Below are positions 2,073-13,218 of a DNA stretch of 13,218 nt, in pieces. The DNA lies in contig JAJYGM010000781.1 in NCBI GenBank assembly GCA_021785095.1, positions 1 to 13,218 of the forward strand, in the 5' to 3' direction. The position numbers were made by a program, and so were the translations under genes. Source of the DNA: Actinomycetes bacterium (lineage in GTDB: Bacteria > Actinomycetota > Acidimicrobiia > Acidimicrobiales > Bog-793). Within the stretch, counting starts at the first letter, position 1. The number at the start of each line of letters is the position of its first letter. The notes beneath the pieces are model-generated. The model worked only from the letters and a program-made list of their open reading frames with translations, was not told where the DNA came from and made no database searches.

Positions 2073-3013
2073 GCCAGCCGGACGACCGGGGTCGCGTCGG
2101 GCAGGGGGTCGAAATCCTTGAACCGGCGGACCCGGGTCCCCTTCAGCGTGCACTGGATCGACAGGTCGCCTTCTCCGATCTCACGTTCCGAGGTCTCCAA
2201 CGCCGCTCCGTGCAGGACGTCTGCGCCCAGCTGGGCCCGGACGCGCTCACGGGCGAGGCGCCGGGCCGCGGCTTGGGCCCGGTTGACCTGGTCCACCGGG
2301 CCGACCCCCGACACCCCGCCGGCGCCCGAGCCGTACCAGGTGCCGGCGGTGCTGCCCGCGAGCTGGTAGTGGGTGATGCAGTAGCCCAGCATGCGGACGG
2401 CGCTCAGCGTGGCGACGACGGCGACCGGTGCGAACCCGGCCTCGATGAGCTTGGCGAGGCGCTGCCCCGAGAGGTACGTGCTGAAGGGGGTCGCGGGGCG
2501 GGGCGCACCGGGGACCACGACCGCGGTGCCGCTCGCGCGGAACTCGACGGTGGTCCCGCCCACGAGCGGGCGCATGGCGTCGACGACGCCGACGACTCCC
2601 GTCGCCCCGAGCTCCTTGGCCTCGTCGACCATCCGGCCGGTCGCGAGCCCCCACCCTGACGCCCAGCTGTCCTCCAGCCATGTGAGCTCGTAGTTGGCGC
2701 CGTACATGCGGTGCTCGGCGCTCACGAAGCCGTGCGGGCACTGCCACTGCTCGACGTACTGCCCGCCGCGCTGCGGCGTGACCCCCCATCCGCCGGCCAC
2801 GCCCAACCGCCCGCCCATGCCCATGCCGAACCCGCCTGTGGCCATGAACCAGCTCCACTGCAGGACCGCGTAGCCCTGGACGTAGCCCACGGGCTCCATC
2901 CCCATGTCGAGGCACGACGCGAAATCCGAGACGGAGAGCCCCGACGACCACGCGCCCCCGGCGAGGCGACGCGTCGCCGCTTCGGGGAGCCCGTCGCCGG
3001 CTGCCGCGGCCAT
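2069..3013 (-). CDS. Divergent tandem YbjQ/DUF74-like protein with Gly/Met/Trp-rich insertion, second paralogue
   Basis: A 314-residue protein. The first YbjQ-like copy (about residues 24-166) starts SGLSVSDFASCLDMGMEPVGYVQG and ends with TTVEFRASGTAVVV. It is interrupted at about residues 58-105 by an insertion rich in Gly, Met and Trp (TGGFGMGMGGRLGVAGGWG) with one Cys and His residues. The second copy (about 176-296) starts PFSTYLSGQRLAKLIEAGFAPV and has a Gly/Ser-rich loop (about 218-240) before the helix QAAARRLARERVRAQLGADV. The longer open frame runs back to 3484 inside the upstream gene; the true start is ATG 3013, which shares its A with the upstream stop (TGATG). Copies here are weaker matches than in the first paralogue, but spacing of the conserved motifs is kept. 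The function is unknown. Confidence 0.83.
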   Translation of the reverse strand: MAAAAGDGLPEAATRRLAGGAWSSGLSVSDFASCLDMGMEPVGYVQGYAVLQWSWFMATGGFGMGMGGRLGVAGGWGVTPQRGGQYVEQWQCPHGFVSAEHRMYGANYELTWLEDSWASGWGLATGRMVDEAKELGATGVVGVVDAMRPLVGGTTVEFRASGTAVVVPGAPRPATPFSTYLSGQRLAKLIEAGFAPVAVVATLSAVRMLGYCITHYQLAGSTAGTWYGSGAGGVSGVGPVDQVNRAQAAARRLARERVRAQLGADVLHGAALETSEREIGEGDLSIQCTLKGTRVRRFKDFDPLPDATPVVRLA

Positions 3014-3915
3014 CAGCCGTCGAGCGAGATGATCGTCTTCGGCTGGGGGATCGTGTGGTCTCCCTCCTGGCGCGCCACCGCGGTCCCGAGGGAGAGGAAC
3101 TCGATCGTGTGGTCGCCCCACATGTGGCTCTTCTCCTCGAGGCGCACCCCGACGATCCCGGTGGCGCCGAGCTCGTTCGCCTCGTCCTGCATGCGGGTCA
3201 TCGCGAGCTCGCGGGCCTCGTAGAGGGCCTGGGTGAAGTTCGGCAGCTCGACGTTCCGCCCGGTGCTGCGCAGCGTCTGGCCGATCCCGCGGTGGGCGAT
3301 GTGGTACACGCACGTCCCCATCACGAGCCCGAGCGGGACGTGGCCCGTCTGCATCAGGATCCAGAAGTCCTGCCCCGACAGATCGGACGTGAAGGGCTTG
3401 CCGTGCCGGTTCCGGTAGGAGCGGCCGTCCTCCGACTTGACCGCGGTGCCCACCGCGATGAACTCCGCGGTGTCCGAGCCCCACTCGTAGTAGTTGACGT
3501 CGAGACGGACGCCCACGACGCCGTCCGCCCCGAGCTCCGTGGCCTCGGCGTCCATCCGGTCCATCGCGAGCTCACGCGCCTGGTACATCGCCTCGGTGAG
3601 CTTCGACAGCTCCTGGCTCTGGGACCACTTCCTCGTCTGGATGCCGAGGTGGTAGATCGAGCTTCCCATGACGAAGCCGAGGGGATGGAAGCCCACCTCC
3701 TTTATCAGGAGGAACTCGCTCACGGAGAGGTCCGAGGTGAACATCCCCTTGTGCCCGGGGCGGTCCTCCAGCGCGGCGAGCCGTCGGCTGGCGTCCCGGG
3801 GGAGGCCGTCGGGGAGGAGCGCGCCGTCCGCCCCGTCGGGCTGCGAGAGGGGCGCGCCGTCCACCCCGTCGGGCTGCGAGAGGGCCGCTCCGGCCTCGCC
3901 CGGTCGCTCGGTCAT
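3013..3915 (-). CDS. Tandem YbjQ/DUF74-like ('heavy-metal-binding domain') protein, first paralogue
   Basis: A 300-residue protein made of two well-preserved YbjQ-like domains. Domain 1 is at about residues 60-160 (TSDLSVSEFLLIKEVGFHPLG ... EAMYQARELAMDRM ... ELGADGVVGVRLDV ... EFIAVGTAV). Domain 2 is at about 176-284 (TSDLSGQDFWILMQTGHVPLG ... QALYEARELAMTRM ... ELGATGIVGVRLEE ... EFLSLGTAV). The N-terminal 57 residues are a low-complexity acidic tail with an 11-residue repeat (SQPDGVDGAPL, SQPDGADGALL). Only one Cys is visible, so the 'heavy-metal' label is not supported by obvious ligands. The open frame extends to 4074, but ATG 3915 is preferred because it forms an ATGA overlap with the upstream stop and the upstream part is shadow sequence. 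Known YbjQ proteins are about 105 residues and oligomeric; fusing two copies suggests a pseudo-symmetric assembly (inference). Confidence 0.9.
   Translation of the reverse strand: MTERPGEAGAALSQPDGVDGAPLSQPDGADGALLPDGLPRDASRRLAALEDRPGHKGMFTSDLSVSEFLLIKEVGFHPLGFVMGSSIYHLGIQTRKWSQSQELSKLTEAMYQARELAMDRMDAEATELGADGVVGVRLDVNYYEWGSDTAEFIAVGTAVKSEDGRSYRNRHGKPFTSDLSGQDFWILMQTGHVPLGLVMGTCVYHIAHRGIGQTLRSTGRNVELPNFTQALYEARELAMTRMQDEANELGATGIVGVRLEEKSHMWGDHTIEFLSLGTAVARQEGDHTIPQPKTIISLDG
3821..3886. repeat. 33-bp tandem duplication in the N-terminal tail of the first YbjQ paralogue
   Basis: Two copies with a 33-nt period (3821-3853 and 3854-3886), differing at only a few positions, share the core GCGCCGTCC(G/A)CCCCGTCGGG. 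They encode the 11-residue repeat SQPDG(V/A)DGA(P/L)L. The in-frame period keeps the gene open, so copy number could vary without frameshift. Confidence 0.8.
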
Positions 3916-4319
3916 GGGCCGTTTCCTATCACAAGCGACTCGAGGGCGAGCCTCGTGGCCTCGGTCGTCTGGGCTTCCGCGCTGAGGGCACCCAGGAGCC
4001 GACGAAGCCACTCGTCGACGCTCACGCGGCTCGATCGGATGCGGATCCCCCCGCTGCTCCTGCTGACGGTGCATTCCAGGCTGCCTCGATCGACCAGCGC
4101 GTCGAACTGGTCGTCCCCGAGGCGGATGGAGAGCTGGCGGATCTCCTCGCCCTTGCGGAACCGTCCGGCGCGCTCGACCGCCAGCCGTGCGCCCAGCGCG
4201 TCGGAGAGCCTCGTGACCAGCGCTCGGAGCAGGACGCGCACGTCGCTGTCGTCAGCGTGCAGGGAGGATGCGAGGAGGTCGAGGTCGAGGTCCCCAGAGC
4301 CCCCTGCGTCTGTCGTCAC
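3912..4319 (-). CDS. Conserved-looking small protein of unknown function, first gene of the YbjQ operon
   Basis: A 135-residue soluble protein with an acidic, Leu-rich N-terminus (SGDLDLDLLASSLHADD). A central basic stretch (AVERAGRFRKGEEIRQLSIRLGDDQF) is followed by an IRIRSSRVSVDEWLRRLLGAL segment, and the C-terminal helix is EAQTTEATRLALESLVIG. I do not recognise a catalytic motif. My recollection, not checked here, is that similar small proteins accompany YbjQ-like genes in other actinobacteria. A GTG at 4397 gives a 161-residue version, but GTG 4319 is preceded by TAGCCT at exactly the leaderless 7-nt spacing, and translation from it removes a low-information Arg/Gly N-terminus. Its TGA overlaps the ATG of the first YbjQ paralogue (ATGA), so it is the lead gene of the operon and may assist or regulate the YbjQ assembly. 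Confidence 0.8.
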   Translation of the reverse strand: MTTDAGGSGDLDLDLLASSLHADDSDVRVLLRALVTRLSDALGARLAVERAGRFRKGEEIRQLSIRLGDDQFDALVDRGSLECTVSRSSGGIRIRSSRVSVDEWLRRLLGALSAEAQTTEATRLALESLVIGNGP

Positions 4320-7992: not shown

Positions 7993-7998
7993 TAAGGT
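7993..7998 (+). promoter_or_regulatory. Candidate leaderless -10 box of the SDR / hydroxyacid dehydrogenase operon
   Basis: TAAGGT followed by 7 nt and the GTG at 8006; the same hexamer and spacing occur upstream of the MFS start. It selects GTG 8006 over the in-frame GTG at 7997, which lies inside the box. No clear -35. Confidence 0.5.
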
Positions 7999-8005
7999 GC
8001 CGCAC

Positions 8006-8773
8006 GTGGCGACGGCCGGAGTGACGCGCGACGCGGCGGGTGTGGCCGTCGTGACGGGGGCGTCGAGCGGCATCGGCGAGGCCACGGCGCGCCGGCTCGC
8101 AGCACTCGGGTTCGACGTGGTGATCGGCGCGCGCCGCGAGGACCGGCTCCGTGCGGTCGCGGGCGACATCGGAGCCCGCTACGCCGTGCTGGACGTCACC
8201 GACGCGTCGTCGGTCGACCGGTTCTGCGCGGGCATCGACGCGTGCCGGGTCCTCGTCAACAACGCCGGGGGTGCGCTCGGGCTCGACCGGATCGAGGTCG
8301 CCGACGAGGGCGAATGGCGGGCCATGTACGACACGAACGTCCTCGGCACCCTCCGTATGACGCAGCGGCTCCTCCCGTTGCTCGAAGCGAGCGGGAACGG
8401 GCACGTGGTCATGGTCGGGTCCGTCGCCGGCTACGAGCCCTACGCCGGCGGTGCGGGCTACAACGCGGCGAAGTTCGCTGAGCGCGCGTTCTCCGGCGTG
8501 TTGCGCAAGGAGCTCCTCGGCCGCCCGGTCAGGGTGTCGGAGATCGATCCGGGCATGGTCAGGACGGAGTTCAGCACGGTCCGCTTCAGCGGCGACGAGG
8601 CACGCGCCGAGTCGGTCTACCGCGGGATGACACCCCTCAGCGCAGAAGACGTCGCCGACTGCATCGCGTTCGTGGTGACCAGACCGCCGCACGTGAACAT
8701 CGACACGCTCGTCGTGCTGGCGCGCGACCAGTCCGGGGCGACGACCGTCCACCGTCGCGAGGCAAGCACGTGA
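8006..8773 (+). CDS. Short-chain dehydrogenase/reductase, YdfG-like (hydroxy acid / 3-hydroxy amino acid type)
   Basis: A 255-residue classical SDR. It has the Rossmann motif TGASSGIG (residues 17-24), Arg43-Arg44 after beta-2 suggesting NADP(H), NNAG (85-88), and the catalytic Asn111, Ser139, Tyr152 and Lys156 (YNAAK). The C-terminal part (DPGMVRTEFSTVRFSGDE and RPPHVNIDTLVV) matches the YdfG clade, whose members oxidise L-allo-threonine or serine at C3 or reduce malonic semialdehyde. The exact substrate is not determined. Its TGA overlaps the GTG start of the FMN-dependent dehydrogenase gene (GTGA), so the two are an operon, possibly acting on successive hydroxy/oxo intermediates. The start at 8006 follows a TAAGGT box at the leaderless spacing. 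Confidence 0.92.
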   Translation: MATAGVTRDAAGVAVVTGASSGIGEATARRLAALGFDVVIGARREDRLRAVAGDIGARYAVLDVTDASSVDRFCAGIDACRVLVNNAGGALGLDRIEVADEGEWRAMYDTNVLGTLRMTQRLLPLLEASGNGHVVMVGSVAGYEPYAGGAGYNAAKFAERAFSGVLRKELLGRPVRVSEIDPGMVRTEFSTVRFSGDEARAESVYRGMTPLSAEDVADCIAFVVTRPPHVNIDTLVVLARDQSGATTVHRREAST

Positions 8774-9951
8774 GCGTGCTCGACGACCTTCTCGCGCGCG
8801 CAGACGCTCGTTCGGCCCAGCGCCTGCACAGCGTGCGTGACGCCCGGCGCACGGCGCGCAGGAAGCTGCCGGCCGTGGTGTTCGACTACGTGGACGGCGC
8901 GGCCGACGACGAGGTGACGATGCGCCGGAACGAGGACGCGTTCGGATCGGTGGCGTTCCGGCCGAGGATGGCGTCAGGGCTCGTCGAGCCGCGTCTCGGC
9001 GTCACGGTGCTGGGGAAGGAGATCGACTTCCCCGTGTTGCTCGCACCCTGCGGCCTGGTCAGGCTCCTCCACGCCGACGGCCCGGCAGGGGTGGCCCGAG
9101 CGGCGGCGTCCAGAGGCACCGTGTCGGTCCTGAGCACCGTGGCCGGCAGCCCGGTGGAGGCGGTCGCAAGCGAGTCGAAGGCGCCGCTGTGGTTCCAGCT
9201 GTACTCGGCGGCCGGCCTTCGGGAGGCGGACTCGCTGTGCGACCGGGCGGCCGCCGCGGGCGTCGACGTCCTCATGGTCACCGTCGACACGCCGACGCTC
9301 GGCAACCGCGAGCGCGACGTCCGCCACGGGGTGGCACCGCCGCTCCGCGTCGATGCGCACAACGCGGTGCCGCTCGGAGTGCAGGTCCTGGCGCGCCCGC
9401 GCTGGGCGGCGCAGCTCGCGTCGACCGGCATCCGGCTCTCGAGCAGGGGAGCCGGGCCGGCGGGGCACGGCAGCGGGCTGCTCAGCTCCGTCGCGTCGCC
9501 GTTCTCCTGGGACGACGTGGCGCACCTGCGCAGCCGCTGGGAGGGCCGGCTCGTCGTGAAGGGCGTCCTCTCGGGGGCGGACGCTCGCCAGGCGGTCGGC
9601 GCGGGGGCGGACGCCGTCGTCGTGTCGAACCACGGCGGGCGTCAGCTGGACGGTGCGCCGGCGACCCTCCAGGCGCTCCCCGGCGTCGTCGCCGCCGTCG
9701 GCGGCGACGCGGAGGTGCTGATCGACGGCGGGATCCGCAGGGGGTCGCACGTGGTCGCGGCGCTCGCGCTGGGTGCCCGCGCCGTGCTGATCGGGCGCCC
9801 GTACCTCTTCGGGCTGGCCTCCGCGGGCGAGCTGGGGGTGGAGCGAGTCCTCGACATCCTCCGCGCGGAGATGCGCCGGACGATGGTCCTCATGGGCTGT
9901 CCCTCCGTGGACCAGTTGGGCCCGGACTGGCTGGAGGTCCCCCGGTCCTGA
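8770..9951 (+). CDS. FMN-dependent 2-hydroxyacid dehydrogenase/oxidase (LldD/glycolate oxidase family)
   Basis: A 393-residue TIM-barrel flavoprotein that oxidises an L-2-hydroxyacid (lactate, glycolate, mandelate or similar) to the 2-oxoacid. The family residues are visible: Tyr40 in FDYVDGAADDE, Gln143 and Tyr145 in WFQLYS, TVDTP with Thr171 and Asp173, and Arg180. The FMN lysine Lys264 is in LVVKGVLSGADA, and the catalytic base His288 and substrate Arg291 are in SNHGGRQLDG. The phosphate-binding DGGIRRGSHV and IGRPYLFGLA follow. It has the full family length and starts at GTG 8770 within the SDR stop codon, so translation is coupled. It is not MftD, because the MftD-type N-terminus is absent. 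No lactate permease or LldR-type regulator is nearby, so the natural substrate is open. Confidence 0.93.
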   Translation: MSVLDDLLARADARSAQRLHSVRDARRTARRKLPAVVFDYVDGAADDEVTMRRNEDAFGSVAFRPRMASGLVEPRLGVTVLGKEIDFPVLLAPCGLVRLLHADGPAGVARAAASRGTVSVLSTVAGSPVEAVASESKAPLWFQLYSAAGLREADSLCDRAAAAGVDVLMVTVDTPTLGNRERDVRHGVAPPLRVDAHNAVPLGVQVLARPRWAAQLASTGIRLSSRGAGPAGHGSGLLSSVASPFSWDDVAHLRSRWEGRLVVKGVLSGADARQAVGAGADAVVVSNHGGRQLDGAPATLQALPGVVAAVGGDAEVLIDGGIRRGSHVVAALALGARAVLIGRPYLFGLASAGELGVERVLDILRAEMRRTMVLMGCPSVDQLGPDWLEVPRS

Positions 9952-9981: not shown

Positions 9982-10893
9982 CTACCCGTACGAGAAGGCG
10001 AGCGCGTTCGATCTCCCGCTCTCGGTGAACAGCCTCAGGTACGTCGATCCCGGGCGGCTGCCGAGATCGGGCACCGTCACCGTGCAGACCGTCATCGACG
10101 GGCAACTCGTCGGTGCGACGGTTCCCCCGAAATACGCCTCGATGGAGCCGTTCCTGCTGAAAAATCCCGAGCCGCGGACCACGACGCGCTGACCTGCGCT
10201 TCCCGAGACAGGTGAGACGGCCGTCAGCAGCGGCCCGGCCGCCGCGCCGATCGGTGCCGCCGCGCCGGTAGGTGCCGCGCGGGCTGCGGCCGTCGTCGTC
10301 GACGTCGTCGTTTGCGAGGGCTGGGGTGCCGCCGCCGGCGTGGTCAGGCCCGGCGCGGGGTGCGAGCTCGGGGGGCCGTGGGTGGAGCGGCTGGGCGTCC
10401 GCGGCCGCTCGACCGTAACGGGGCTGCTTTCCGTGGGCCTCGAAGCGGGCGGCGTGACGTGCGCGGGGGACCGGAGCGCCAGCACCAGCCCAAGCCCGGC
10501 GGCGGCGAGCACGACCACGCCGGCAGCGCCCATGAGCAGCGCCGGCGGCGGCGGGCGCCCGGTGAGGACCCGTCGCTCGAGCCCCCATCCCTGGCGCCGG
10601 CTGCCTGACGCCCGATCCAAGGTGGCAGGCACGTGTGTGGCACCTGGCGTGGAGGCTGACGTCCGGGGCGGGACCGGCCCGGCGTAGTTCGCCCGCAACG
10701 GTCGGCCGCTCGCCGTCGCTCGCGAGACGAGACGCCGTGGCCCGGTCTCCTCGTCCCCTTCGTCCCGGCCGGTCTCGCCGTCGTAGGTGCGGGCCCGTCT
10801 GGCCGCGCTCTCCATTGCGGCGAGCGCCCGCAGGCTCGGCTCCCCAGGCGAGGGAGCACGTGGCCCACGCTGTGTCCCCGAGCCGCGGCCCAT
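9982..10893 (-). CDS. Single-pass membrane protein with extracytoplasmic IPT/TIG domain
   Basis: A 303-residue protein. The N-terminal 115 residues are hydrophilic, rich in Arg, Gly and Pro, and probably cytoplasmic. One transmembrane segment follows at about 118-140 (ALLMGAAGVVVLAAAGLGLVLAL). A Pro/Thr/Ser/Ala linker of about 80 residues leads to a C-terminal IPT/TIG-like immunoglobulin fold (about 224-303): LLTAVSPVSGSAGQRVVVRG, then FFGG-like YFGGTVAP, and VTVPDLG. Cys264 and Cys270 could form a disulfide outside the cell. IPT/TIG domains occur in surface receptors and adhesins. A GTG at 10929 would add 12 residues; ATG 10893 is preferred because AAAGCT, a partial -10 box, lies 7 nt before it. 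The role is unknown; a surface or wall-associated anchor is plausible. Confidence 0.75.
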   Translation of the reverse strand: MGRGSGTQRGPRAPSPGEPSLRALAAMESAARRARTYDGETGRDEGDEETGPRRLVSRATASGRPLRANYAGPVPPRTSASTPGATHVPATLDRASGSRRQGWGLERRVLTGRPPPPALLMGAAGVVVLAAAGLGLVLALRSPAHVTPPASRPTESSPVTVERPRTPSRSTHGPPSSHPAPGLTTPAAAPQPSQTTTSTTTAAARAAPTGAAAPIGAAAGPLLTAVSPVSGSAGQRVVVRGSGFFSRNGSIEAYFGGTVAPTSCPSMTVCTVTVPDLGSRPGSTYLRLFTESGRSNALAFSYG

Positions 10894-11088
10894 GCCGGGT
10901 AGCTTTCCCCGGGGACGCCGATCCCTCACACGACCATGATGGGCCCAGTCGAGGCGGAGGTGTCAGCAGGCAGGCCGAGACGTCGACGTCGGTGCGCGCA
11001 GGGAGCCATCGCGGGCCTCAGGAAGTGCCCGGGGCGCCCTCGGGCCGCCGCGCCCGGGGCCCACCGAGTCCGACGGGCACCCTGGTGC
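10894..11088. other. 195-bp spacer without a recognisable gene
   Basis: No convincing reading frame was seen. Near the nitroreductase stop it holds GC-rich self-complementary sequence: CCCGGG at 11028-11033 and 11053-11058 can pair, which may act as a terminator for the nitroreductase gene. The promoter of the IPT protein should lie at the left end. Confidence 0.4.
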
Positions 11089-11604
11089 CTACCAGCGGTC
11101 CCAGTGCACCACGTCCTCGAAACGGCGTCGGTCCGGGTGCTCGATCGGTCGGAGCGGCCGGTCCGCCGGGTGGCCGAGCGCGATGAGGTAGAGGCAGGAA
11201 TAGCCCTCAGGGAAGCCGAGAACCCGCTTGGCCTCACCCTGGTCACTGACCGCCGCGTGCCCGGAAGAGATTCCCAGGTCGGCGCCCGCGAGCATCATGT
11301 ACGCAGTCGCCTGCCCGAGGTCGTACTGCAGCAATCGGGCATGCACGTCGTCCTCCGGATCGGCTGCCACGAGTGCGATGGTCGCGGCGGATGCGGCGAC
11401 GTGCCCCGCACCGCGCCAGACGGTCGCGAGCTCGCCGAGCTGCTGACGGTCAGTGACCACGACGAAGTGCCACGGCTGCCAGTTCGTCGACGACGGCGCG
11501 CGCCGTCCGGCTTCGAGGATCCGCTCGAGCTCTGCTCTCGTCACGGGCTGGTCGGTGTACTGGCGGACGTTGCGCCGTGCCCTGATGGCGTCCCAAGTCT
11601 CCAT
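11089..11604 (-). CDS. Nitroreductase-family FMN oxidoreductase
   Basis: A 171-residue protein of the nitroreductase superfamily, which uses FMN and NAD(P)H to reduce nitro compounds, quinones or enones, or acts in dehalogenation or cofactor synthesis. It shows the FMN-binding N-terminus WDAIRARRNVRQYTDQPV (Arg10, Arg11, Arg14), the APSSTNWQPWHFVVV segment with Asn41 and Gln43, and the dimer-helix region LGQATAYMMLAGADLGISSGH. The C-terminus LYLIALGHPADRP is typical of the cofactor-binding end. It is at the short end of the family (often 180-220). ATG 11604 follows TAGACC by 6 nt on the minus strand, with AGGACG 17 nt further upstream. It is divergent from the radical SAM homologue; a shared function is possible but not shown. 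Confidence 0.9.
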   Translation of the reverse strand: METWDAIRARRNVRQYTDQPVTRAELERILEAGRRAPSSTNWQPWHFVVVTDRQQLGELATVWRGAGHVAASAATIALVAADPEDDVHARLLQYDLGQATAYMMLAGADLGISSGHAAVSDQGEAKRVLGFPEGYSCLYLIALGHPADRPLRPIEHPDRRRFEDVVHWDRW

Positions 11605-11610
11605 GGTGAA

Positions 11611-11639
11611 GGTCTACCAGCCCTGGGCCGGCTCGTCCT
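11611..11639 (-). promoter_or_regulatory. Candidate near-leaderless promoter of the nitroreductase gene
   Basis: On the minus strand AGGACG (11634-11639), a 17-nt spacer and TAGACC (11611-11616), then 6 nt to ATG 11604. It resembles the TTGACG-N17-TAGACA promoter of the Rpf-like gene. Confidence 0.4.
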
Positions 11640-11672
11640 CGCCGATACCCTCGGGGCGCCGGCCGTCGCTCA

Positions 11673-12956
11673 GTGTCCGTTCGACCGTGGAATCTCCTCG
11701 TGCGTCCGCACCGGCCCTCCGAGCTGCGGTTGAGACCTTCGGCCCTGGCCGCTTCCGTCGCCGCGGCTCATCGTGAGAACGTGGCGACCGTCGCGCGGAT
11801 CGCATCGTCGACAGTCCGACAGTCCTGCGTCGGCTCTGCCGCCCGGCCGTTCCTGGTCGACGTCGCGCTGATGAACTGCGGCTTCGCAGGTCGGCGCGGC
11901 CGGACCGATACCGTTCCGGGCCAAGGTCCGCACGCGCTCTCGACGGGAGAGGTCGAGGCCGTTCTCGACGATCTCTCGGCGATCGGCGCCCCGAGGCCGC
12001 GTGTGGTCTTCTCCGGGGGTGATCCGCTTCGGCGACCCGACCTCCAGACGCTCGTCGTCCACGCCGCGGGGGCCGGACTGCCCGTCGGGGTCTCGGTCAC
12101 AAGCACGCCGCGTGCGACCGCGTCGAGCCTCGCAACGCTTCGGCTGTGCGGAGCGACTGCGGTCTCGTTCTCCATCGACGGCGCCAGCGCGGCGACGCAC
12201 GACGGGATCCGGGGCGTGGACGGATCGTTCGGCTCGACCATCGACGCGTGCCGAGCTGCCGTCAGGGTGGGTCTGAGGCTGCAGGTGAACACGACCGTTC
12301 GCGCGTCGACGGTGTTCGAGCTGCCGGGCATCGCGCGCCTGGTCGACGCGGTCCGCGCGGCGATGTGGAACCTCTTCTTCGAGGTGCCGACCGAGTGCGC
12401 CCCGACCAGCGAGGCGCTCTCGGCTGCCGAGACGGAGGACGTCCTTGCCTTCCTGTTCGACCTCGCTCCGCAACTGCCGCTCGAGACGACCGAGGCCCCT
12501 TCGTTCAGGCGCCTGCTCGTGCACGGTGACCAAGGTGCGCCGGAACGCACCCCGGGCGCGCTGTACCGGAGACTACGCGCCCGGCTCGCCGACGAATGGC
12601 CGCTTGCCGAGAGGAGGGCGGGCTCTTGGCCGGCACCTGAAGGCGGCCACGGGCGGGCGCCGCTCGCGGCCGGTGACGGTCGCGGCGGAGTGTTCGTCTC
12701 CCACATCGGGGAGGTCCAGCCAAGCAGGTTCCTGCCGCTCGTCGTGGGAAATGTGCGGGACACGCCCCTGTCGGAGCTCTACGCCAACGCTCCGCTGCTG
12801 AAGGCCCTGCGAGACCCGGCTGCGCACCACGGGAGGTGCGGACGTTGCGAGCTCAATGAGATCTGCGGCGGATCGCGCGCTCAGGCATACGCACGGTCGG
12901 GCGATCCGCTGGCGGAAGACCCGACGTGCGACTACCGGCCGGCGGGGGAGGGTTGA
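11673..12956 (+). CDS. Radical SAM/SPASM-like protein with degenerate cluster motif (putative pseudo-enzyme)
   Basis: Up to 427 residues, with the architecture of the radical SAM/SPASM family related to heme-modifying NirJ/AhbD-type and TIGR04053-like proteins. Visible are ARPFLV before the cluster loop, VVFSGGDPLRRPDL (the SAM-contacting GGD, residues 115-117), SFSIDGASAATHDGIRG, LQVNTTVRAS, and VFVSHIGEVQPSRFLPLVVGN. The SPASM end has Cys389-x2-Cys392-x5-Cys398, then GGSRAQAYARSGDPLAEDPTC with Cys419. The CxxxCxxC motif that binds the catalytic [4Fe-4S] cluster reads C69-GFA-G73-RR-G76, so two of the three cysteines are glycine. The frame is otherwise intact. The start is uncertain: GTG 11673, 11700 and 11781 are possible; the last leaves 20 residues before ARPFLV. 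Without the cluster it is unlikely to do radical chemistry and may instead bind a substrate or partner. Confidence 0.82.
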   Translation: MSVRPWNLLVRPHRPSELRLRPSALAASVAAAHRENVATVARIASSTVRQSCVGSAARPFLVDVALMNCGFAGRRGRTDTVPGQGPHALSTGEVEAVLDDLSAIGAPRPRVVFSGGDPLRRPDLQTLVVHAAGAGLPVGVSVTSTPRATASSLATLRLCGATAVSFSIDGASAATHDGIRGVDGSFGSTIDACRAAVRVGLRLQVNTTVRASTVFELPGIARLVDAVRAAMWNLFFEVPTECAPTSEALSAAETEDVLAFLFDLAPQLPLETTEAPSFRRLLVHGDQGAPERTPGALYRRLRARLADEWPLAERRAGSWPAPEGGHGRAPLAAGDGRGGVFVSHIGEVQPSRFLPLVVGNVRDTPLSELYANAPLLKALRDPAAHHGRCGRCELNEICGGSRAQAYARSGDPLAEDPTCDYRPAGEG

Positions 12957-12969
12957 GCGGTCGCCGCTC
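12955..12969. terminator. Hairpin at the convergent junction after the radical SAM homologue
   Basis: GAGCGG (12955-12960) pairs with CCGCTC (12964-12969) around a TCG loop. The stem starts within the TGA of the gene, and an outer TT/AA pairing is possible with one bulge. The gap to the opposing stop is only 31 bp. No T-tract. Confidence 0.5.
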
Positions 12970-12987
12970 GAACTCGCACCGCACGAG

Positions 12988-13218
12988 TCATCCGCGTGTG
13001 CTCTTCCCCGCAGGGCGGTCTGGTCGTTGGCTTCGGAACACGACGACGGAGCGCTCAGGATGGTCGGGGTCGAGATGGACCGCGAACGGCTTGTCCGTAT
13101 CGGGCTGCGAGCCCCCGTCGACCACGATCACGACCTCATTGTCATTTCGACCGTAAATGGCGTTCGCCATCCCGAGCATCGCTTGCCCGAGCACCGATCC
13201 TCCGGATGAGCGGGCGAT
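12988..13218 (-). CDS. Unrecognised protein, C-terminal part (cut by window end)
   Basis: The minus-strand frame is open from base 13218 to a TAG/TGA-type stop at 12988-12990, giving at least 76 residues. A GTG at 13194 could be a start, but the frame continues to the window edge, so I call it partial. The sequence reads SVLGQAMLGMANAIYGRNDN, then a strand EVVIVVDGGSQPD, an acidic turn HLDPDHPERS, the strand VVVFRSQ and a basic tail. Codon use is typical for the window, and the alternation of strands and turns looks like a real folded domain. I do not recognise the family and assign no function. It is convergent with the radical SAM homologue. Confidence 0.65.
   Translation of the reverse strand: MARSSGGSVLGQAMLGMANAIYGRNDNEVVIVVDGGSQPDTDKPFAVHLDPDHPERSVVVFRSQRPDRPAGKSTRG

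Follow-up and report, generated by a model that had tools for sequence, protein, structure and literature searches.

A probably maintained, non-catalytic relative of TIGR04053 radical SAM/SPASM proteins in uncultured actinobacteria

The last long gene of the window, by which the whole 13,218-nucleotide stretch analysed here is meant (contig JAJYGM010000781.1 of GenBank assembly GCA_021785095.1, from an Actinomycetes bacterium), is an open reading frame (ORF) of 427 codons at positions 11673-12956 of the plus strand, which encodes a degenerate protein resembling the radical S-adenosylmethionine (SAM)/SPASM proteins of the NCBIfam family TIGR04053. We judge it rather likely that this protein, which occurs in a small group of uncultured actinobacteria, represents a pseudoenzyme of the TIGR04053 lineage that is young and maintained, with the catalysis being carried by an intact paralogue; it is probably a maintained non-catalytic relative rather than a dead gene.

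In radical SAM enzymes, the cysteines of a CX3CX2C loop hold the [4Fe-4S] cluster that cleaves SAM. The corresponding former cluster loop of the window (11844-11924, plus strand) is without cysteines 2 and 3 and reads C-GFA-G-RR-G-R at 11877-11903 within the open frame, with the first cysteine encoded at 11877 and glycines at the second and third positions, just as a preliminary description, made from the letters of the window alone, had read it (C-x3-G-x2-G). That description had also held that the loop aligned residue for residue with the family motif, that each of the two glycine codons was one base change away from a cysteine codon, and that the surrounding W-E-x-T residues were gone, all of which needs some qualification. 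The loss at both cysteine positions stands, but the window is one residue short directly before the first loop cysteine when set against intact relatives and the copy in G010, a genome of the same genus; the third-position codon is indeed one base away from that of close relatives, but the second-position codon, which the window shares with G010 and another genome of the genus, G009, is more than a single step from the cysteine codon of the intact relatives compared; and the pre-loop motif has changed to V-A-L-M, but what close relatives show there is F-E-L-T, not W-E-x-T. The frame, said to be intact over more than 400 codons, is open throughout its 427 codons, but the likely protein is shorter, running from a GTG at 11781 to 12956 on the plus strand (391 aa). 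As ORF codons 20-55 look unconstrained, with a pairwise omega (the ratio of nonsynonymous to synonymous substitution rates, dN/dS) of about 2 within the clade described below, the exact start is uncertain and GTG 11781 is the likeliest one; several relatives of similar length start close to it.

The claimed retention of the SAM-binding GGD motif and of the SPASM cysteines was borne out. The former (12015-12023, plus strand) is intact in the window and is replaced by GCD in P0001 and P0002 and by GSD in P0003 and P0005, all four of which are relatives found by protein search, and the motif CX2CX5CX20C of the SPASM/twitch end (12837-12929, plus strand), which is of the type binding auxiliary cluster II (AuxII), has all four of its cysteines. 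Three of these are present in 132/132 rows of an alignment that comprised the window and 131 of 134 proteins (P0113, P0115 and P0116 were left out), and the fourth in 131/132, one row being gapped there. The radical SAM partial barrel (11832-12488, plus strand) is delineated by Pfam, the omega of the degenerate branches and the predicted fold, with the window protein matching Radical_SAM (PF04055) over the threshold, at 33.2 bits, and SPASM slightly below it.

All three loop cysteines are found in 127 of the 132 aligned rows, the exceptions being the window, P0001 (98% identity, loop C-G-G), P0002 (93%, F-G-C), P0003 (79%, S-D-C) and P0005 (73%, C-C-R). Relatives sharing the window's C-x3-G-x2-G loop, which had been sought, thus exist: besides P0001, the nearest genome, G001, encodes a protein identical to that of the window, with just three synonymous differences in 1284 bases, while the loops in G009 (93%) and G010 (86%) read C-G-C. 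A protein-identical copy in a second genome makes a read error unlikely, and, as the losses in G009, G010, P0001, P0002 and P0003 are related yet different, a sequencing or assembly error deserves next to no credence as an explanation of the missing cysteines. The relatives are also free of the stops that an ordinary decaying gene might show, none being present inside the match in G001, G009 or G010. A second protein search, using a profile of the degenerate clade, revealed no further close members among the best 120 of 1502 rows over the threshold and added 14 proteins (P0121-P0134), all with three cysteines.

In a tree of 56 rows (45 of 120 proteins and 11 DNA-derived rows, window included; other loci were left out), the window, P0001, P0002, P0003 and the G009 and G010 copies formed a single clade (100/100), whose sister comprised P0004, which has three cysteines, and P0005, which had lost its third cysteine independently. 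Both groups were kept (100/99 and 99/98) in a 28-row tree (19 proteins and nine DNA-derived rows) built without the loop and GGD columns. Cysteine 2 is absent from 6/6 clade members, whose loops otherwise vary (C-G-G, C-G-C, F-G-C, S-D-C), and all six have gained a cysteine at residue 206.

Since the loss of cysteine 2 is common to G001, G009 and G010, their divergence postdates it, which allows the selection acting after the loss to be estimated. A codon model of nine sequences, with G001 in place of the window, gave an omega of 0.17 on the degenerate crown branches, 0.08 on the stem and 0.05 in the background; a crown omega of 1 was rejected (likelihood-ratio test statistic, LRT, 93.5), and leaving out the loop gave a crown omega of 0.15. 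By region, the crown omega was 0.13 in the barrel core (codons 88-236), 0.22 in the middle and 0.06 in the SPASM part (codons 346-424), with neutrality being rejected in each (LRT 49, 21 and 29, respectively). The loop itself (codons 62-84) behaves differently: the three pairs of degenerate copies show 7, 8.3 and 5.3 nonsynonymous changes there versus 5.4, 9.6 and 9.3 expected from the synonymous rate of the rest of the gene, so that no pair departs clearly from neutrality (lowest P 0.098, for G009-G010), whereas two intact pairs show one change each versus 14 and 18 expected. Purifying selection outside the loop and near-neutrality within it, together with intact second copies and matches without stops, support the maintained pseudo-enzyme that the preliminary description had proposed, and this is the pattern by which a pseudoenzyme is recognised, namely, catalytic residues lost and the remainder under purifying selection. 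The open frame as such is weak evidence, for 23% and 5% of the neutral simulations came out free of stops; the retained amino-acid identity, on the other hand, lies far outside those simulations.

An intact paralogue elsewhere in the genome, which the preliminary description had suggested looking for, was found alongside the degenerate copy in three genomes of the genus. Exactly one TIGR04053 copy over the family cut-off occurs in 11/13 genomes of the genus, and G001, G009 and G010 are among them, each having one such copy and one degenerate copy under the cut-off; the three loop cysteines are present in 10/10 of the over-cut-off copies that were read (10 of the 11, the G005 copy being outside this set). 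That intact and degenerate copies coexist is certain in the case of G009 and G010, as the surroundings of their intact copies match each other. At the locus of the window gene itself, the same-genus genomes G002, G006, G007 and G013 have orthologues that retain three cysteines and score over the family cut-off, and their neighbours are the same as in the window, i.e., a short-chain dehydrogenase, an FMN-dependent dehydrogenase and a divergent nitroreductase.

Several observations weigh against a maintained protein. The selection test comprises three degenerate DNA sequences, P0001, P0002, P0003 and P0005 being available as proteins only. Equality of the crown and background omegas (0.17 and 0.05) was rejected (LRT 30.4), and, with the gene less tightly constrained than its intact relatives, slow decay retains some probability. 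In the G009-G010 pair, the FMN dehydrogenase (omega 0.164) and the short-chain dehydrogenase (0.108) are more constrained than the degenerate copy. In G011, the locus neighbours are present and no related gene was found there, which makes the degenerate gene look dispensable. The intact copy of G001, which lies on a 9.1 kb contig (C48, L041), is 99.98% identical to G008 (C163, L061) over 6202 bases, with one mismatch, so that it was either transferred recently or is a contaminant introduced by binning; the nitroreductases of G001 and G008 are far less alike than this stretch, and an intact copy of the G009 type was not found in G001. Finally, the predicted fold discussed below is partly imposed by the mostly intact relatives on which the model was built.

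An early pseudogene, whose function had been taken over by the intact second copy and which decays slowly, beginning with the active-site loop, would account for the relaxed omega, the intact second copies residing in the same genomes, the absence of the gene from the locus in G011 and an open frame that arises by chance in 5-23% of runs. Such a scenario seems unlikely, if deserving of serious consideration, given that neutrality is rejected at an omega of 0.17, that both the barrel and the SPASM part stayed constrained after the loss, and that erosion is concentrated in the loop rather than spread over the gene. Moreover, the degenerate copy of the G009-G010 pair evolves at an omega of 0.265, near the values that the intact second copy (0.280) and the nitroreductase (0.277) show in the same pair.

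It is very improbable, in turn, that the protein still works as a radical SAM enzyme, with alternative ligands or a reduced number of cysteines holding its cluster. The intact GGD of the window and the additional cysteine that all six clade members have at residue 206 could be read in this way, but no constant set of loop cysteines is kept (the first is lost in P0002 and P0003, the third in the window and P0001), GGD becomes GCD or GSD in some members, and the loop is more or less unconstrained.

As for the pseudoenzyme, the changes outside the loop suggest something of the order in which it may have arisen. Changes were counted over the 99 columns that are conserved among 126 intact rows, a reference set that excluded P0004 and the degenerate rows; the rows of G009 and G010 were aligned to it at constant length, and the gaps that they show at R13 and C33 are artefacts of alignment or trimming. 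Of the 99 columns, the window has changed 17: eight of 12 in the loop, none of six in the GGD region, three of 33 in the barrel, four of 18 in the middle and two of 30 at the SPASM end. P0004, with its three cysteines, has changed 12/99, several of them at columns that the clade has changed too (P106, G108, S197, V297, V303 and G316), while P0007, P0010, P0012 and P0013 have kept all 99, P0016 all but one and P0006 all but two. Judging from this one sister pair, other conserved residues may have changed first and the cluster may have been lost second. A structure predicted from the 132-row alignment reached a predicted local distance difference test (pLDDT) score of 87.7, falling below 50 at residues 35-43, in the former cluster loop; a prediction from eight sequences was poor (pLDDT 49) and was not used.

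The sequences themselves show that, within a clade of one actinobacterial genus, several otherwise conserved residues have changed, as they also have in the three-cysteine sister P0004, that loop cysteine 2 has been lost and that other loop cysteines have disappeared in differing ways, with the barrel, the SPASM end and the AuxII cysteines staying under selection. As the loop cysteines are gone, the resulting protein should be incapable of holding the [4Fe-4S] cluster that cleaves SAM, according to established radical SAM chemistry, and would be unable to generate the 5'-deoxyadenosyl radical. It presumably still folds and binds one AuxII [4Fe-4S] cluster, and, because the AuxII motif is kept and the barrel is constrained while the loop is free, a ligand- or partner-binding role is suggested, with the partner perhaps being the intact paralogue: the protein would act by binding a substrate, a partner or electrons rather than by radical chemistry, and the intact paralogue would catalyse. 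A non-catalytic AuxII protein working beside an intact paralogue is the reading we favour. A more far-reaching version, which we put forward tentatively and regard as somewhat less likely than not, is that an enzyme has turned, within one genus, into an AuxII-only protein with a new job, e.g., that of a substrate or electron partner, or of a regulator of the intact TIGR04053 paralogue. On this reading, the steps of the conversion can be seen in living relatives, with conserved residues going first (P0004) and the loop cysteines then one by one in different lineages.

The preliminary description had suggested aligning the protein with TIGR04053-, NirJ- and AhbD-like families, and TIGR04053 is its best NCBIfam match, albeit at 330.6 bits and under the cut-off of 395; AhbD (TIGR04545; 201.8 bits, cut-off 500), NirJ2, NirJ and TIGR04347 (113.1 bits, cut-off 525) come next. 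The TIGR04053 cut-off is likewise missed by P0001, P0002, P0003, P0005 and the copies in G009 and G010 (320-352 bits) and by P0004 (358 bits), and it is exceeded by the intact P0006, P0007 and P0016. The window protein shares with TIGR04053 the C-terminal CX2CX5CX20C (AuxII) motif and the locus of orthologues scoring over the cut-off, and both the trees and synteny indicate descent from within this family at an orthologous locus, but it differs by the CX3CX2C that has become C-G-G and by its score. Its nearest named precedent is TIGR04347 (pseudo_SAM_Halo, "pseudo-SAM/SPASM protein"), a SPASM protein without a working radical SAM site, going by its name alone. The window does not reach the cut-off of that family and 0/3 genomes have a match over it, and a separate origin is likely, since the nearest kin of the window are intact TIGR04053 rows. 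Pseudo-radical-SAM/SPASM proteins are, then, already a named kind by this NCBIfam name, and the window protein is a further case of it, caught early and stepwise. No description of this clade or of such a loss within TIGR04053 and no paper mentioning TIGR04053 were seen in the literature searched, outside which most subscription journals lie.

Among the next-best matches, AhbD has an AuxII motif given as CX2CX5CX20-38C (PMC10452713), which the window matches, and most AhbDs of non-methanogenic archaea are described in the same source as lacking the cysteines of auxiliary cluster I (AuxI) and retaining AuxII. The closest solved structure, by both sequence profile and fold, is that of PqqE (PDB 6c8v; 18-23% identity), which is catalytic and carries both auxiliary clusters, AuxI and AuxII (PMC10452713). 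What AuxII does in AhbD is termed enigmatic, a variant without it having kept heme synthase activity (PMC10452713), and the clade described here bears on this open question. Its value lies in graded losses combined with internal controls: intact orthologues, the altered but three-cysteine P0004, C-G-C and C-G-G copies form a graded series, partly within one genus and at one locus, and this series, with the intact second copy as an internal control, makes a role of the SPASM cluster without radical chemistry testable. Caution in annotation is also warranted, as family resemblance easily leads to radical SAM proteins being annotated as enzymes; the sources label P0003 as a radical SAM protein and P0005 as an AdoMet-dependent heme synthase, and both are without some of the cluster cysteines.

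Any link of the window protein to heme, as hinted at by a family that scores close to AhbD and NirJ, would be a lead only. PF06778 matches 13/13 genomes of the genus and PF17805 none of the 13, and we take these to be of the ChdC and AhbA/AhbB types, respectively. In Haloferax volcanii, AhbD is stated to serve anaerobically and ChdC aerobically (PMC8305020). Such a division of labour would allow for a second, oxygen-independent enzyme in the genus.

Turning to the neighbours, the syntenic markers upstream are the short-chain dehydrogenase (7997-8773, plus strand; PF00106) and the FMN-dependent dehydrogenase (8770-9951, plus strand; PF01070); in NCBIfam, the latter scores highest against the mycofactocin enzyme MftD, though below the cut-off (301 bits, cut-off 471). 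The divergently oriented nitroreductase-family protein (11089-11604, minus strand; PF00881; pairwise omega 0.09-0.28) adjoins the gene at intact and degenerate loci alike and was considered as a functional partner but set aside, as it occurs in G011 without the gene and, in G004, G005 and G008, lies on stretches in which the gene was not found. Measured in steps of 300 bases, the segment holding it and the degenerate gene (10800-13218) shares 92-96% identity with G009, compared with 67-94% (mostly 80-92%) over the remaining shared stretch, and its synonymous divergence (dS) is 0.11-0.15 versus 0.30-0.36 for the upstream dehydrogenases; the sequences thus make an exchange of this segment between lineages likely.

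At four intact loci, a short alanyl-tRNA synthetase-like gene (626-628 aa; G002:C45, L047:9594-11474; L044, L045 and L046) lies beside the nitroreductase, and it is absent from the window, L040, L042 and L043. The short form occurs in 8/13 genomes of the genus, several of which match the synthetase via this form alone, while G001, G009, G010, G011 and G012 match via a longer form only; no reason was found to regard the gene as a functional partner, and the three degenerate genomes are without the short form. Solute-binding protein and ABC permease genes adjoin the intact G002 orthologue (L047:5595-7666), and a MerR-TOBE gene and an apparent ABC ATPase, judged by eye, adjoin the second copy of G001 (L041:7264-9113), neither set being near the window gene; judging by these neighbours, a link of the TIGR04053 family to oxyanion uptake is possible. 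Short repeats (76-105 bases, 92-97% identical) lie around the intact second copies, on contigs that have diverged in other respects (L041:4882-4986 and 2939-3017; L059, L060), and weaker matches to them occur elsewhere in the genomes. Lastly, the minus-strand predicted proteins at 1129-1998 and 3013-4074 of the window fall into one blast cluster and are partly similar.
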